Source: Deltaproteobacteria bacterium (lineage in GTDB: Bacteria; Myxococcota; Myxococcia; SLRQ01). From it: a stretch of DNA of 43,171 nt. The stretch covers positions 1 to 43,171 of the forward strand of contig JARGFU010000037.1 in the NCBI GenBank assembly GCA_029210625.1, given 5' to 3'. The position numbers were made by a program, and so were the translations under genes. The notes beneath the pieces were generated by a model. That model saw nothing but the letters and a program-made list of their open reading frames with translations, was not told the DNA's origin and ran no database searches. Each line of letters opens with the position of its first letter. The stretch's first letter is position 1. Positions 1 to 43,171 of the stretch are shown here, piece after piece.

Positions 1-43
1 GCTCCAGGGTCGGGGAGGGTGTCTTCGCCCCACCAAGTGTGTG

Positions 44-200
44 GCACCTCTTTCCAGCACCTCTTTCCACCAAGTGTGTGGCACCTCTTTCGCGCACCTC
101 TTTCGCACCTCTTTCGCAGCACCTCTTTCGCAGCACCTCTTTCGCAGCACCTCTTTCGCAGCACCTCTTTCGGCAGCACCTCTTTCGGCACCTCTTTCGG
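44..200. repeat. Short tandem repeat, 11 copies of GCACCTCTTT
   Basis: The 10-mer GCACCTCTTT starts at 44, 57, 81, 94, 105, 119, 133, 147, 161, 176 and 188. It is mostly followed by CG or CGCA, which gives a unit of about 14 bp. The first part also holds a larger duplication: the stretch starting CACCAAGTGTGTGG begins at 31 and again at 68, a 37-bp period. The block lies directly upstream of the histidine kinase start at 264. It is read through in all three plus frames, so it creates spurious upstream extensions of that gene. Units are too short and too unevenly spaced for a CRISPR array. No function is evident; it could be a slippage-prone repeat or a row of binding sites. Confidence 0.85.
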
Positions 201-4009: not shown

Positions 4010-4495
4010 TCAACGCCGCACCGCCACGTCGACGATCTCGGCCTGCAGCACCGCCTCCAGCGCCTCGGGCGCGACCTCGACGAGGAAGCCCCGCTGGCCG
4101 CCGTTGACCAGGATGGTCTCGTGCTCGAAGAGGTCGATCTGCAGGTAGGTGGGGGAGGGGGTCCGCTGCCCGAAGGGGCTGATGCCGCCCACCTTGTAGC
4201 CGGTGAGGCTCTCGGCCCGGGGGATGGCGCAGGGCTCGATCCGCTTGCGCCCCAGGTGGCGGGCCAGCTGCTTGGTGCCCACCTCGAAGGGGCCGTTCAT
4301 CACCACGACCAGGGGCGCGCCGGTCTCGTCCTCGAAGAGGAGGGTCTTGGCCACCCGCAGGTGATCCACCCCCAGGGCCTCGGCCGAGCCGCGGGTGCCG
4401 CCCCCCTGGTAGCGATAGAGGTGAGGCACGAAGTCGATCTCGTGCTCTCGCAGGAAGCGCACGCCCAGGGTGATCGGATGGTCGGGTCGGCCCAT
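4010..4495 (-). CDS. ybaK: YbaK/EbsC-family aminoacyl-tRNA deacylase
   Basis: A 161-residue cytoplasmic protein of the YbaK/EbsC branch of the ProX/INS trans-editing superfamily. Members hydrolyse mischarged Cys-tRNA(Pro), protecting proline codons from cysteine. The family core is visible: an early conserved stretch HLRVAKTLLFED, then PLVVVMNGPFEVGTKQLARHLG, then the signature TGYKVGGISPFG with the conserved Lys and the GGxSPFG loop, and a C-terminal ETILVNGGQRGFLVEVAPEAL. Length matches the usual 155-165 residues. The gene stands alone and is divergent from the HIT-protein gene, with only 28 bases between the starts, so they must share a very short control region. Substrate preference within the superfamily is inferred from motif similarity. 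Confidence 0.88.
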   Translation of the reverse strand: MGRPDHPITLGVRFLREHEIDFVPHLYRYQGGGTRGSAEALGVDHLRVAKTLLFEDETGAPLVVVMNGPFEVGTKQLARHLGRKRIEPCAIPRAESLTGYKVGGISPFGQRTPSPTYLQIDLFEHETILVNGGQRGFLVEVAPEALEAVLQAEIVDVAVRR

Positions 4496-14191: not shown

Positions 14192-15610
14192 ATGCGCACC
14201 TCGATCGCCCTCCTGCTCGCAGGTCTCCCGCTCTTCCTGCTGGCCGCCTGCGGACCCCGACCCGGCCCCGAGCCTCCCGGACCGACCTGGACACCCGAAG
14301 AGGTCTACCGGGCCGAGGGCGACGCGGGCGCGGCGGCGGGCCGGGGTCTCCAGGACGCGCGCGGCATCATCCACGGCCACTCCCCCTATTCGCACGACGC
14401 CTGCGACGGGGAGCCGCGGGATCCGGTCACCGACGCCATCGACGAGGCCTGCCTCGACGACCTGCGGCGGGCCATCTGCCAGACCCGCCACGACTTCGTG
14501 ATGCTCTCCGATCACGGGGAGAGCTTCGCCCGGAGCGAGTTCCCCGACGTGCTCCTCCACCGGCCGGCCGAGGGCGACACCCTGGTGGATCGGGGCAGCG
14601 GGCCGGTGGCCAACCGGATCGTCTGTGGCGACGAGAGCACTCTCGTCCTCGCGGGGACCGAGACCGGCGCGATGCCGGTGGCCCTCGAGGGGCACGTCGA
14701 TCCCGATCCGGCCGAGCGCGCCCGCATCTACGGCAGCACCGAGCCGGCCGATCTGATGCGCCTCAAGGCCGCCGGCGCGGTGGTGCTCGCCCAGCACACC
14801 GAGGACTGGAGCGAGGACGACCTCGCCCTCAAGCCCTTCGACGGCTTCGAGATGTACAACCTGCACGCCAACCTCTTCCTCAACGCCGGCCCGGCCCTGG
14901 AGCTGATCCTGCTCGCGCAGGATCCCGAGAACTTCGAGCTCCTGCCCCACCCCGAGGTCGTGCTGGCCCTGCTCTTCTCCGAGGATCCGCGCTACCTCGA
15001 TCGGTGGAGCGGGGTCCTCGCCCGCGGGGTGCAGCGGGTGACCACCCTGGCCACCGACGCCCACCGCAACTCCCTGCCCGACCTGCTCCAGGACGGCGAG
15101 CGGATGGACAGCTTCCGCCGCATGATGCGGATGTTCTCCAACCATCTGTTGATCGAGCCCGGCACCGGCGGCGGCTTCGACGATCGTCAACTGCGGGACG
15201 CCCTGCGGGCCGGCCGGCTCTACGGCAGCTTCGACTACCTCGGCTTCCCGCGCGGCTTCGACTTCCACGCCCGGGAGGCCGGCGTCGTCCGCGAGATGGG
15301 CGCGAGCGTCGTGGTCGGCTCGGAGCTGGTGGTGGAGCCGCCCCGGATCCAGAACCTCGACCCCGAGGCCGCCGAGCCCGAGCTCACCCTGCGCCTCCTC
15401 CGGGCCACCGCCGGCGGCTGGGTCGAGGTGGCCAGCGCGCCGGCCACCGGCGGGACCCTGCGTCACACCCCCTCGGAGCCCGGCGCCTACCGGGCCGAGG
15501 TGCGGATCCGGCCCTTCCATCTGCGGGGCTACCTCGGTGACTACGAGCACCTCCTCGACGAGCAGGACTTCGTCTGGATCTACGCCAACCCGATCTACCT
15601 CGAGCCCTGA
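14192..15610 (+). CDS. PHP-like metal-dependent hydrolase lipoprotein
   Basis: A 472-residue protein with a lipoprotein signal (LLLAGLPLFLLAAC, C20). It has the scattered metal ligands of a PHP domain: H61-G-H63 with H68 (HGHSPYSHDAC), D107-H108 with E110 (LSDHGES), QHTEDW, and TDAHRN. PHP proteins are phosphoesterases in many cases, and envelope-located members of this kind remain poorly described, so a periplasmic or surface hydrolase acting on a phosphate or other ester is the most that can be said. The C-terminal ~120 residues are beta-rich (VVVEPPRIQNLD, EPGAYRAEVRI) like an immunoglobulin-type domain. It is followed five bases later by the FG-GAP lipoprotein. Confidence 0.8.
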   Translation: MRTSIALLLAGLPLFLLAACGPRPGPEPPGPTWTPEEVYRAEGDAGAAAGRGLQDARGIIHGHSPYSHDACDGEPRDPVTDAIDEACLDDLRRAICQTRHDFVMLSDHGESFARSEFPDVLLHRPAEGDTLVDRGSGPVANRIVCGDESTLVLAGTETGAMPVALEGHVDPDPAERARIYGSTEPADLMRLKAAGAVVLAQHTEDWSEDDLALKPFDGFEMYNLHANLFLNAGPALELILLAQDPENFELLPHPEVVLALLFSEDPRYLDRWSGVLARGVQRVTTLATDAHRNSLPDLLQDGERMDSFRRMMRMFSNHLLIEPGTGGGFDDRQLRDALRAGRLYGSFDYLGFPRGFDFHAREAGVVREMGASVVVGSELVVEPPRIQNLDPEAAEPELTLRLLRATAGGWVEVASAPATGGTLRHTPSEPGAYRAEVRIRPFHLRGYLGDYEHLLDEQDFVWIYANPIYLEP

Positions 15611-15615
15611 TCGTC

Positions 15616-17028
15616 ATGCGCCGCCCTTCGGTATTCCTCCTCACCTCCTTCTGCCTGCTGGCCTCGGGCTGTGGTGACGGTGTCGTGAGCATCGCTCACG
15701 ACGCGGGCAGCGATGGCGGTGGCGCCGGGGACGCCGGAGTCGACGGCGGCGCGGATGGGGGCCTCCCCGACGGGGGCGGTGTGGACGGCGGCAGCGACGG
15801 TGGGAGCCCGGACGGCGGGGGAGGGGGACCCACCCGCTACGTCGACGCGAGCGAGCGGCTGCCCTCGACGGCCAGCTCGACCACCGACGCCCTCCTCTTC
15901 GACGCGGACGGCGACCGGGTGGCGGACCTGCTCTTCGTCTCCCAGACCGACGCGGCCGGGAACGAGGGCGGGGTGGAGCTGCTCCTGCGCCGGGGCGCCG
16001 ACCTCGTGCCCTCGCCGATGCCCACCACCGGGAGCTGGACCTTCGGCGCCGCCGGGGACCTCGACCGCGACGGGGATCTCGACGTGGTGCTCACCCGGCC
16101 GGCGCGGACCTCGGCCCAGGTGGCGCTCCTGCTGAACGACGGCGCGGGTGCCTTCACCTTCGACGACACCTCGCTGCCCCTGATCAACGGAGAGGTGAAC
16201 GGCCTCTCCTTCGCCCGCCCGGTCCTCCTCGATCTCACCGGCGACGGGGCCCCCGAGCTCTTCCTCCCCCTCTCCTTCAGCCTCGACTTCACCGACGACA
16301 TGCCGAGCGTGCTCCTCGTCAACGACGGCTTCGGCACCTTCGTCGTGGATCCCGCGGGCCGGCTGCCGGCGATCCCCGATCTCGAGGACTGGACGATCTG
16401 CGCCGCCGCCGGCGACGTGGACGGCGACGGGGACCTCGACCTCTTCCTCGGGGAGGCCGAGCGGCAGCAGCGGCTGCTGATCAACGCCGGCGGGACCTTC
16501 TCCGATCAGACCCTGGACGATGGCAGCGGCGCGCCGCGCCTCCCCCCGGACACCGTGCGCAGCTACCACTGCGAGTTCGCCGATCTCGACGGAGACGGAG
16601 ATCAGGATCTGGTGATCATCACCGACGCCAGCACCAGCAGCGGCACCGCGGTCGCCACCGAGAACGTGGCGCTCTGGAACGACGGCGCCGGCCACTTCGC
16701 CCTGGAGGTCCTGCCCTCCACGGCGGGGCCCCGGGACAGCCGGGGGCTCTTCGTCACCGACCTCGACGGAGACGGGCACCTCGACATCCTCGTCGGGAAC
16801 GCCTCGGACACCCTCGACCACGGGGGGCAGGCCCTGGAGATCCTCCACGGTCAGGGGGGTGGGAGCTTCCTCCCCTTCGCGGGGCTGCCCGCCTTCGGCG
16901 GCGGCGTCTACGCGGTCCCGGCCGCGGACCTCGACGGCGACGGCTGGGGCGATGTCTTCCTGGCGGTGGGGGAGCCGGACCCCGCCACCGGCAGCCTGCG
17001 CAACCGCCTGCTGGTGAGCGCGCCATGA
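15616..17028 (+). CDS. FG-GAP/VCBS-repeat surface lipoprotein
   Basis: A 470-residue lipoprotein (signal LLTSFCLLASGC). An Asp/Gly-rich low-complexity linker of about 45 residues (units such as DGGSDGG) is followed by a beta-propeller of FG-GAP/VCBS repeats. At least seven calcium-loop motifs are seen: DADGDRVADLL, DLDRDGDLDVV, DLTGDGAPELF, DVDGDGDLDLF, DLDGDGDQDLV, DLDGDGHLDIL and DLDGDGWGDVF. Such propellers bind calcium and mediate adhesion or protein contacts on the cell surface. It lies 5 bases after the PHP-like gene, and its stop overlaps the next start (ATGA), so three genes were probably one transcript before the next one was damaged. Confidence 0.88.
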   Translation: MRRPSVFLLTSFCLLASGCGDGVVSIAHDAGSDGGGAGDAGVDGGADGGLPDGGGVDGGSDGGSPDGGGGGPTRYVDASERLPSTASSTTDALLFDADGDRVADLLFVSQTDAAGNEGGVELLLRRGADLVPSPMPTTGSWTFGAAGDLDRDGDLDVVLTRPARTSAQVALLLNDGAGAFTFDDTSLPLINGEVNGLSFARPVLLDLTGDGAPELFLPLSFSLDFTDDMPSVLLVNDGFGTFVVDPAGRLPAIPDLEDWTICAAAGDVDGDGDLDLFLGEAERQQRLLINAGGTFSDQTLDDGSGAPRLPPDTVRSYHCEFADLDGDGDQDLVIITDASTSSGTAVATENVALWNDGAGHFALEVLPSTAGPRDSRGLFVTDLDGDGHLDILVGNASDTLDHGGQALEILHGQGGGSFLPFAGLPAFGGGVYAVPAADLDGDGWGDVFLAVGEPDPATGSLRNRLLVSAP

Positions 17029-17555
17029 GCGTCAGCCAGCGGGAGGCGCCGCCCCTCTACCTCGCCACGCAGACCGTCGACCGGGGCACCGGCTGGCTGC
17101 CCCGGCTGGAGGCGGCGCTGCAGGCGGCGGGCTACGGCTTCGAACCCCTCCCCCTCGATGCAGCCGGCGAGGCCGCCGCTCCGGCGCTCGGGGCGGGGGC
17201 GCTGGTGATCGTGCCCGTGCCCGACGACGCGCGCCTTTCCCTGGCGGTGGAGCGCTTCGGTGAGGGAGCGGCCCGTCATCCCCTCCTCCTGGTCGAGGGG
17301 CTGGGCACCCTCTCGGTCGATCTCTCTGCGACGGGCTACCCCCTCGCGAGCGCCGGGCTCGGCCCCGAGGGCCGCGTCCCAGGCCGAGGTGTCGGTCCCG
17401 CACGCCGCCAACCCCAGGGTCAGGCCGGCCGTGAGCAGCGCGGAGACGAGCGGGCGAGCGAGGCGGCGGTGGTCCATGTCTTCTCCCCTAGCGAATGCCG
17501 GGCCAGCTTCCCGGCGTGGCCTCAACTACCTGATCTGACGGGAAGCTCGAGATGA
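17025..17555 (+). pseudogene. 5' fragment of an unknown gene, 3' end apparently lost
   Basis: The gene starts well, with an ATGA overlap to the FG-GAP lipoprotein. About 110 residues have normal protein character (LYLATQTVDRGTGWLPRLEAALQAAGYGFEPLPL, ALVIVPVPDDARLSLAVERFGEG, HPLLLVEGLGTLSVDLS). From about base 17372 the third codon positions lose their G/C bias and the text turns into Arg/Gln/Gly filler. From there the opposite strand encodes the front of a lipoprotein. The frame happens to stay open to 17555. I read this as a 3'-truncated gene rather than an intact 176-residue protein. The family is not recognised. Confidence 0.55.
17360..17477 (-). pseudogene. 5' fragment of a lipoprotein gene, rest missing
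   Basis: On the minus strand an ATG at 17477 follows a good ribosome site (GGGGAGAAG) and opens a lipoprotein signal: MDHRRLARPLVSALLT, a Leu-rich core, then LAACGTDTSAW. After about 40 residues, near base 17360, the G/C-third-position pattern fades and the frame runs antisense through the 3' part of the plus-strand fragment and into the FG-GAP gene until 16908. A start, a ribosome site and a signal peptide with no body indicate that the 3' part of the gene was removed. The same event would explain the truncated convergent neighbour. Confidence 0.5.
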
Positions 17556-17673
17556 CGCGTCACGTCACGTTACGGTGCCGGAGGGGCCAGAAGTTGAACG
17601 GTGTCGCCCCCGCTTGGTGGAGCCTTCCCCCCATTGGTACTAGGGTCGGCTTCTCTCTTGCTCCGGGGGCTCG

Positions 17674-19083
17674 ATGAAGTACTGGGGAAACAGCGTCGTC
17701 GTCACCTTGATGATCCTCGCGCTGCTCTTGCTGGCGGCGATGGGGTTGCGGCTGATCTTTCCACCGCTGAAGAAGTGGGCGATCCCGGTCAGCATCCTCG
17801 CCGGCGTCCTCGGCTTCTTCCTCGGGCCAGACGTGGCGGGCCTGCTGCCCCTGGACCGGGAGGTCCTCGAGGTCATCGTCTACCACGGCCTCGCGATCAT
17901 GTTCATCGCCATCAGCCTGCAGTCGCCCGCCAGGACCAAGGGCCACGTGGCCGGGGGCGTGCGCAGCTTCACCTTCGGCATCCCCTTCATGCAGGCCCTG
18001 CAGACCTTCCTCGGGCTCCTGATCATCCTCTCGCTCGGCCTGGCCCTGGGAGAGGCGGTCCACCCCGGGATCGGGGTGATGCTGACCCTCGGCTTCGAGG
18101 AGGGACCGGGTCAGGCCCTCGCCCTCGGCGCCGCCTGGGAGGAGAACGGCATGAAGGACGGGGCGCAGATCGGCCTGATCATCGCCGCCCTGGGCTACGC
18201 CTGGTCGGTCTTCCTGGGCGTGCCGCTCGCCATCTACGGCCGCCACAAGGGCTGGGTGTCGAAGCCCCCCGAGGTGGCGGTGGAGCTCGAGGCCGCGGGG
18301 GAGGGCGAGGCCCTCGAGGCGCCCGGCGCCCTCGACAGCCTGACCCTCCAGGGTGTGGTGGTCCTGGGCGTCTACGGGATCACCTGGCTCGTCTGCATGG
18401 GGCTCTCGACGGCCCTGGCCGGCATGCCCGACATCGCGTCGGCGGTCTGGGGCTTCCACTTCATGATCGGCGCGGGCGTGGCCCTGGGGGTCCGCCCCTT
18501 GCTCGACCGCTTGCCCGGCGGGACCCCCGTCAACGATAAGCTCGTCACCCGGCTCTCCGGGGTCGCGGTCGACGTGATGACCTGCGCCTCCCTGGCCGCG
18601 GTGCAGCTCGCCGTCTTCCAGGCCAACTGGGTCACGGTCGTGCTGGTCACCACCCTCGGTGGGGTGGCGACCCTCATCGCCGTGCTCTACTTCGCCAGCC
18701 GGGCCTTCCCCGACGCGCCCTTCGAGCACGCCCTGGTCTGGTTCGGCATGAGCACCGGGACCCTCGCCATGGGCCTCGCGCTGCTGCGGATCGTCGACCC
18801 CGATCTCAAGAGCCCGGCGCCGGTGACCACGGTCCTCGGCTCGGCCGGCGCCATCGTCTTCGCCGCCCCGATCCTGGTGGCGGGGATCCCGATGACGGTG
18901 GCGGCCTTTCCCGAGCGCTACCCCCTCTACGGCTGGCTCGCGATGGGCGTCTTCCTGATCTACGGCCTGATCCTGGTGGGCGTCTGGCGCAAGTTCGCGC
19001 CGCTGCGCTTCCACGGGAAGATCACCCAGCTCTGGTGGCGGCCGGCCGAGACCTCGGCAGAAGCGAGCGAAGGCAGCGCCTAG
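17674..19083 (+). CDS. GltS-like sodium:glutamate symporter family protein
   Basis: A 469-residue polytopic membrane protein with about 11-12 hydrophobic segments. The first half contains MLTLGFEEGPGQALALGAAWEENG, which matches the re-entrant substrate loop of the GltS family (usually GHGT-type). A matching second half has VWFGMSTGTLAMGLALLRIVDP. A charged, Glu/Ala-rich cytoplasmic loop (VELEAAGEGEALEAP) divides the halves. Known GltS proteins import glutamate with sodium; this member has a variant loop, so another organic anion is possible. It stands alone and converges on the Na/Pi cotransporter gene with 22 bases between the stops. Confidence 0.8.
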   Translation: MKYWGNSVVVTLMILALLLLAAMGLRLIFPPLKKWAIPVSILAGVLGFFLGPDVAGLLPLDREVLEVIVYHGLAIMFIAISLQSPARTKGHVAGGVRSFTFGIPFMQALQTFLGLLIILSLGLALGEAVHPGIGVMLTLGFEEGPGQALALGAAWEENGMKDGAQIGLIIAALGYAWSVFLGVPLAIYGRHKGWVSKPPEVAVELEAAGEGEALEAPGALDSLTLQGVVVLGVYGITWLVCMGLSTALAGMPDIASAVWGFHFMIGAGVALGVRPLLDRLPGGTPVNDKLVTRLSGVAVDVMTCASLAAVQLAVFQANWVTVVLVTTLGGVATLIAVLYFASRAFPDAPFEHALVWFGMSTGTLAMGLALLRIVDPDLKSPAPVTTVLGSAGAIVFAAPILVAGIPMTVAAFPERYPLYGWLAMGVFLIYGLILVGVWRKFAPLRFHGKITQLWWRPAETSAEASEGSA

Positions 19084-41869: not shown

Positions 41870-43171
41870 CTAGGGGTTGGGGTTCGTGATCCGGACGGCG
41901 TAGGTGTTGGCGTCGTCCACCGCCAGCTTCAGCCAGTAGCCCTTCCGGGGGTGGAGCTTGCCGCAGAGGATGGGATCGGAGTCCCAGGTCTCCTGGAAGT
42001 AGTTGGCCCCGTCGTAGGCGTAGATCGAGGAGTAGATCCAGCCGGCGAGGACCGCGTTCTCCCAGGTGTTGACCGTCTCGCCGCCGCCGGGGTTCTGCAC
42101 GATCTGGAGCGACGAGAGGAGCACCGCGTCGGGGTGGGGGTTCGCCAGGAGGTTCATGCCCTTCTGGAGGGGCACCTCGACGGTGCTGCCGTTGGTGGTC
42201 GGGGTGGAGTCGCCCGGTGGGGTGAGGTTCTCGCCGCCGGCCATGCCCAGCCAGTAGCCGTAGCCGTCGTGGACCTGCCCGGAGGGGCCGGTGTCCGAGT
42301 AGGCCCCCGACCAGTCACCGACGCCGCTCGAGACCCAGTACATGCAGGAGCTGACGCCGAAGACGCCGCTGCAGGTGTTGGTGGCGCCGAGGTTGTTCTC
42401 GTTGCCGCCGATGTTCCAGCCCGCGTGGACGGTGGACTGGGTCTTGTCGGTGTCGACCCCCAGGAGGCTGGCGACGGGGCCGACGTTCGAGAAGTCGTCC
42501 ACCGCCCTCACCTGCACGTAGTAGCGGGTGTTCGAGTCGAGGCCCGTCAGGGTGATCGTCTCGGTGGCGGTGGCGGCCACGCTGGGGGTGTAGGCGTCGT
42601 CGAAGACGAGGGCGTCGGCCCAGTTGCCCGAGGAGATCGCCTCGTAGCCGTAGCGCACCATGTAGGCCGTGGGGTTGCCCGAGGTCCCGGTGCAGTCCTC
42701 GTAGGGGGCCACGAAGGCGATCGTGATCGTGGTGTCGGTCTGAGTGGTCACCCGCAGGTCGGCGGCGGCGCAGGGCGCGTCGGAGTCGACCAGGGAGGGC
42801 TGGTGGGGACCGGTCGCCACGCCCGCGGCCCAGTTGCCGTTGCTGTCCCGGCTGAAGACCTCGAACCAGTAGTCCTGGCCGTTGGTCAACCCGGTCGCGA
42901 TCGTCGAGGTGCCGGCGCCCACGTACTGGATGGTGCTGGTGCCCAGGGTGTTGCCCTGCAGGTAGGTCGTGCCCTCGGCCGGCTGGTCGGCGATGGCGAC
43001 GGTGTTGCGCAGGATCATCACCTCGGCGAGGTCGCCGTCGCCCGGGTTGCTCCAGTTCAGGGTGATCTGGGTGTTGGCCGGGGAGACGCCGCCCCAGGTC
43101 GCGTCACCCGGAGACTGGTTGTCGATGGTCAGGGTGTCCGAGCCGGTGTCGCTGCCGCTCACCGCGTTGCC
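41870..43171 (-). CDS. Fibronectin type III repeat protein, 5' end beyond the window
   Basis: The gene is open through the right edge of the window (the last codons read Gly-Asn-Ala-Val), so its start is missing. About 433 residues are visible. Two fibronectin type III-like domains are seen: one around ITLNWSNPGDGDLAEVMILRN...GLTNGQDYWFEVFSRDSNGNW, the second around ITIAFVAPYEDCTGTSG...ITLTGLDSNTRYYVQVRAVDDFSNVGP. A C-terminal ~190-residue region (HAGWNIGGNENNLGATNTC, GYGYWLGMAGG, KGYWLKLAVDDANTYAVRI) is unrecognised and has Cys pairs. It probably belongs to a large exported protein of the cell surface. It has no MYXO-CTERM tail. Confidence 0.8.
   Translation of the reverse strand, partial: GNAVSGSDTGSDTLTIDNQSPGDATWGGVSPANTQITLNWSNPGDGDLAEVMILRNTVAIADQPAEGTTYLQGNTLGTSTIQYVGAGTSTIATGLTNGQDYWFEVFSRDSNGNWAAGVATGPHQPSLVDSDAPCAAADLRVTTQTDTTITIAFVAPYEDCTGTSGNPTAYMVRYGYEAISSGNWADALVFDDAYTPSVAATATETITLTGLDSNTRYYVQVRAVDDFSNVGPVASLLGVDTDKTQSTVHAGWNIGGNENNLGATNTCSGVFGVSSCMYWVSSGVGDWSGAYSDTGPSGQVHDGYGYWLGMAGGENLTPPGDSTPTTNGSTVEVPLQKGMNLLANPHPDAVLLSSLQIVQNPGGGETVNTWENAVLAGWIYSSIYAYDGANYFQETWDSDPILCGKLHPRKGYWLKLAVDDANTYAVRITNPNP

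Follow-up and report, generated by a model that had tools for sequence, protein, structure and literature searches.

Two gene fronts meet tail to tail in a draft deltaproteobacterial genome, at a junction that may mark a deletion

Background

Deletion between convergent genes can leave a pair of pseudogenes, and chimeric contigs in short-read metagenome assembly would give the same sequence picture; a truncated pair lying tail to tail is nothing out of the ordinary, whether as genome decay or as a defect of a draft assembly. The locus described here shares with a deletion-derived pseudogene pair its intact starts, the abrupt common end of coding and the antisense readthrough to a chance stop, but differs from it in that no intact relative shows what was lost. 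As compared with a chimeric short-read metagenome contig, it has a junction without a shared k-mer, whereas some of the contig starts in this assembly do share one.

The window (the whole stretch of DNA that was analyzed, 43,171 nt) is the entire contig C37 of a draft genome of 6.11 Mb (64 contigs, 98% complete). Coding character was scored with a model trained on 0.8 Mb from the same genome, a training set in which G+C by codon position is 0.71, 0.49 and 0.96. The features around the junction are as follows.

14192-15610: PHP/CehA-like lipoprotein gene (weak NCBIfam match)
15616-17028, plus strand: upstream FG-GAP repeat gene, intact (Pfam FG-GAP_3, 4e-34)
17025-17369, plus strand: 5' remnant of a gene, about 115 codons
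17370-17555, plus strand: open, non-coding-like continuation of that frame to a chance stop, on the strand opposite the lipoprotein leader and the region upstream of it
17339-17375, no strand: junction, most likely a single switch from plus to minus coding
17367-17477, minus strand: 5' remnant of a gene for a lipoprotein: a ribosome site, then a signal peptide with lipobox LAAC, then about a dozen mature residues
16908-17366, minus strand: open continuation of the lipoprotein frame, not coding-like, antisense to the plus gene and to the end of the FG-GAP gene
17674-19083, plus strand: intact gene for a 469-aa hydrophobic protein, divergent from the lipoprotein remnant (no Pfam or NCBIfam match)

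Two coding fronts that end at one point

The ATG of the plus-strand gene (17025) sits within the ATGA that closes the FG-GAP gene. A coding segment was found at 17017-17369 (score 33.7), with a posterior near 1.0 until about 17340. As scored by frame, the gene reaches +31.9 over 17025-17369 and then falls to -15.3 over 17370-17477 and -14.1 over 17478-17552, which agrees with the preliminary description of a gene that starts at ATGA and loses its bias near 17372. From 17370 to its last codon the frame totals -29.4, and the coding model found no coding-like sequence in 17370-17660. The frame stays open until 17555, giving an ORF of 176 aa for which structure prediction without an alignment returned a mean pLDDT of 42. 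Such an overhang is unremarkable by itself, since in 54 of 1762 coding segments the frame stays open for 120 nt or more past the coding signal (in 12 of them coding resumes in the same frame). The unusual feature is the pair, rather than a single 3' overhang.

On the minus strand, the lipoprotein ATG at 17477 is preceded by GGGGAGAAGAC as ribosome site and opens the leader MDHRRLARPLVSALLTAGLTLGLAAC. The third codon position is G or C in 36 of 37 codons between 17477 and 17367 and in 95 of 114 thereafter; together with the ribosome site and the LAAC lipobox, this bears out the earlier view that the gene starts properly at 17477. The leader is weak on the coding model (+3.6 over 111 nt, posterior 0.1-0.2), and among 37 confident lipoprotein starts of this genome 16% rank below it. 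The pattern of a ribosome site plus lipobox was found at 45 starts in the scanned stretches, 39 of which share the frame of a coding segment; the remaining six rows comprise two antisense places (each listed twice, and both without a clear hydrophobic core), the start of the gene at 14192, and 17477 itself. With this specificity of the pattern, a chance origin of the 17477 start is unlikely. Past the junction, the minus frame scores -17.9 over 17025-17369 and -20.9 over 16911-17024. With both continuations negative, the bodies overlap solely as antisense filler, as had been proposed. The 205 residues formerly given to the minus-strand protein need correction: an ORF of 205 aa begins at TTG 17525, and counted from ATG 17477 the protein has 189 aa.

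A model with a single switch from plus to minus coding outscores plus coding throughout by 18.6 log units, and places the change-point at 17354 (95% range 17339-17375). Neither frame has a stop codon where its coding character ends. A repeat pair, a terminator and an Rfam match were searched for at the junction site and none was found. Both fronts thus resemble genuine gene starts and lose coding character at one point, and the common point of coding loss, with no stop there, is compatible with one event. The preliminary description had one event remove both 3' parts, which the common point within 17339-17375 supports in part, no intact homologue having been found.

Homologues and gene neighborhoods

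The plus remnant (116 residues) has no homologue above noise in 147 genomes of the class and 195 of the phylum (own genome included); the relatives searched included just one other genome of the same family. A scan of genome contigs gave 592 pattern matches, none of which was confirmed, no homologue was found in plasmids, and the best hit of a PDB sequence search had an E-value of 0.41. Besides the own genome, four weak class-level matches were seen (E 1.1e-4 to 8.7e-4). All four were rejected: two of them (L007 and L008) lie on the strand opposite a lipoprotein gene, and the remaining pair falls within proteins of other kinds, which we take to be a thiamine-pyrophosphate enzyme and a photolyase; E-values at this level are noise, since antisense matches reach them too. 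Short homologues with conserved C-termini and related genomes with the same overlapping layout, either of which the preliminary description regarded as counter-evidence, were looked for and not found.

Synteny across the junction was found from the relatives of neither the left nor the right neighbor. Relatives of the PHP-like gene are scattered in 18 of 144 other genomes of the class, mostly at 46-54% identity, and in 14 regions around them no FG-GAP gene or relative of the remnant adjoins. The 469-aa protein, presumably a sodium/glutamate symporter, has no counterpart in the 144 other genomes of the class that were searched; the nearest relatives found (56% and 52% identity) are in MAGs labelled proteobacterium and Rhodobacterales, and lateral gain of the gene is possible. 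Beside these two relatives there is no convincing match to the lipoprotein (best E 0.55) or to the remnant (best E 0.23).

Similar pairs and assembly joins in the same genome

A scan of about 38% of the genome picked out 4 of 235 convergent pairs as resembling this one, tail to tail with both sides open, and 1 of 135 divergent pairs as an open-ended head-to-head pair; some segments appear twice in these counts because the scanned pieces overlapped by about 2-4 kb. Two of the flagged convergent pairs (in C5 and C1) lie within single long ORFs and so are not analogues of the junction. Another, in L147, stems from a gene with a Lys-rich tail whose stop codon is intact, and the fourth is a small 97/157-nt overlap in C2. 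The flagged head-to-head pair is an internal artefact of one long Lys/Ala-rich minus-strand ORF. The pair in the window is not among the four, because its lipoprotein remnant falls under the segment threshold; the convergent-pair scan would likewise pass over any other remnant of the brevity of the 17477 leader.

The L147 tail protein (4035-4481) is Lys/Ala-rich, with an AAKK repeat, and histone-H1-like, and this tail scores as minus-strand coding through its composition. Its gene neighbors are presumably valyl-tRNA synthetase and nadC.

In the part of the genome examined, five stretches are common to contig ends and other contigs. Two pairs of contig starts have exactly their first 55 bases in common (the window with C3, identical over window positions 1-55, and C13 with C61); a third match is also of 55 bases, 136 bases into a contig, and the two others are of 51-52 bases. 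An overlap of exactly 55 bases between contig starts is characteristic of graph assembly with k=55, for which we assume metaSPAdes. Ordinary graph breaks therefore leave a trace in this assembly, as these contig starts attest. No 18-mer from 17300-17430 recurs in 2.32 Mb of the genome, and the longest exact match to the junction among the 40 of 245 candidates scored genome-wide is about 19-20 bases. As no k-mer of graph-relevant length is repeated there, the junction bears no trace of a false join driven by a repeat, from which shared sequence of greater length would be expected; a false join made through a chimeric read or to unbinned sequence would leave no such trace.

The start of C50 matches the window at about 42850-42900, with a run of 51 identical bases and 76% identity across about 1 kb, a diverged repeat near the contig end.

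Explanations of the junction

We lean towards a genuine genomic deletion. The plus gene, at the end of the PHP-like/FG-GAP run, and the minus-strand lipoprotein gene would once have been convergent, and a deletion with one end in each would have taken both 3' parts and whatever lay between them. Past the junction, each remnant would now run on through the other's antisense strand to a chance stop, which would give the lipoprotein a tail of unrelated sequence and the plus protein about 60 unrelated residues at its end; given this readthrough into antisense, both remnants are probably pseudogenes. The change-point, the genuine starts on both sides and the edges free of stops favor a deletion. 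Against it stand the short, weakly scoring lipoprotein leader, the lack of flanking repeats that would suggest a mechanism, the lack of a relative with the intact arrangement, and the lack of a homologue of the plus remnant, so that a longer original is unproven. We infer that the missing 3' parts once existed (from coding statistics rather than from comparison with an intact homologue), that a single event removed them, and that this event took place in the cell rather than during assembly. The earlier account had left deletion and false join side by side; the absence of a graph-relevant shared k-mer now favors deletion, and a false join keeps a minor share of the probability. Such a join would have put two unrelated ends together within C37, whether through a chimeric read, a mixture of strains or faulty scaffolding, and the junction would be absent from the cell. 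A draft in 64 contigs, with contig starts that fit short-read graph assembly, makes room for it, as does the failure to find conserved synteny spanning the junction; however, the junction contains no repeated k-mer long enough to matter to the graph, and the assembly seems not to be rich in such joins, three of the four pairs flagged among the 235 convergent pairs scanned being otherwise explained. We regard it as somewhat unlikely.

Genuine overlapping genes of 176 aa and 189 aa, each ending antisense to the other after loss of a stop codon, are quite unlikely. Both frames are open, and 3' overhangs of at least 120 nt do occur in 54 of 1762 segments (some of them limits of the model), but the continuations are clearly negative on both strands, relatives of these lengths were not found, and the lipoprotein frame would have to run antisense across the entire plus gene into the FG-GAP gene. 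A related reading, in which the two frames are a lineage-specific pair of expressed, mutually antisense genes, each of which gained a new C-terminus from the antisense of the other once the junction had formed, seems far-fetched. An inversion breakpoint, at which the segment between cuts in two co-directional genes was turned around so that their fronts now lie tail to tail here and their backs head to head elsewhere, is compatible with the geometry and requires no loss of sequence. It predicts a reciprocal head-to-head pair, yet the only such pair flagged in the scanned part of the genome was the Lys/Ala-rich ORF artefact, and we consider an inversion very unlikely.

Implications

The significance of this junction is small outside this genome. 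Gene order across 17370 should be relied on only once the join agrees with the reads. Both ORFs should be annotated as truncated, and not as proteins of 176 aa and 189 or 205 aa. More widely, in a genome of about 96% GC3 stop codons are rare, and truncated genes can therefore pass as full ORFs.
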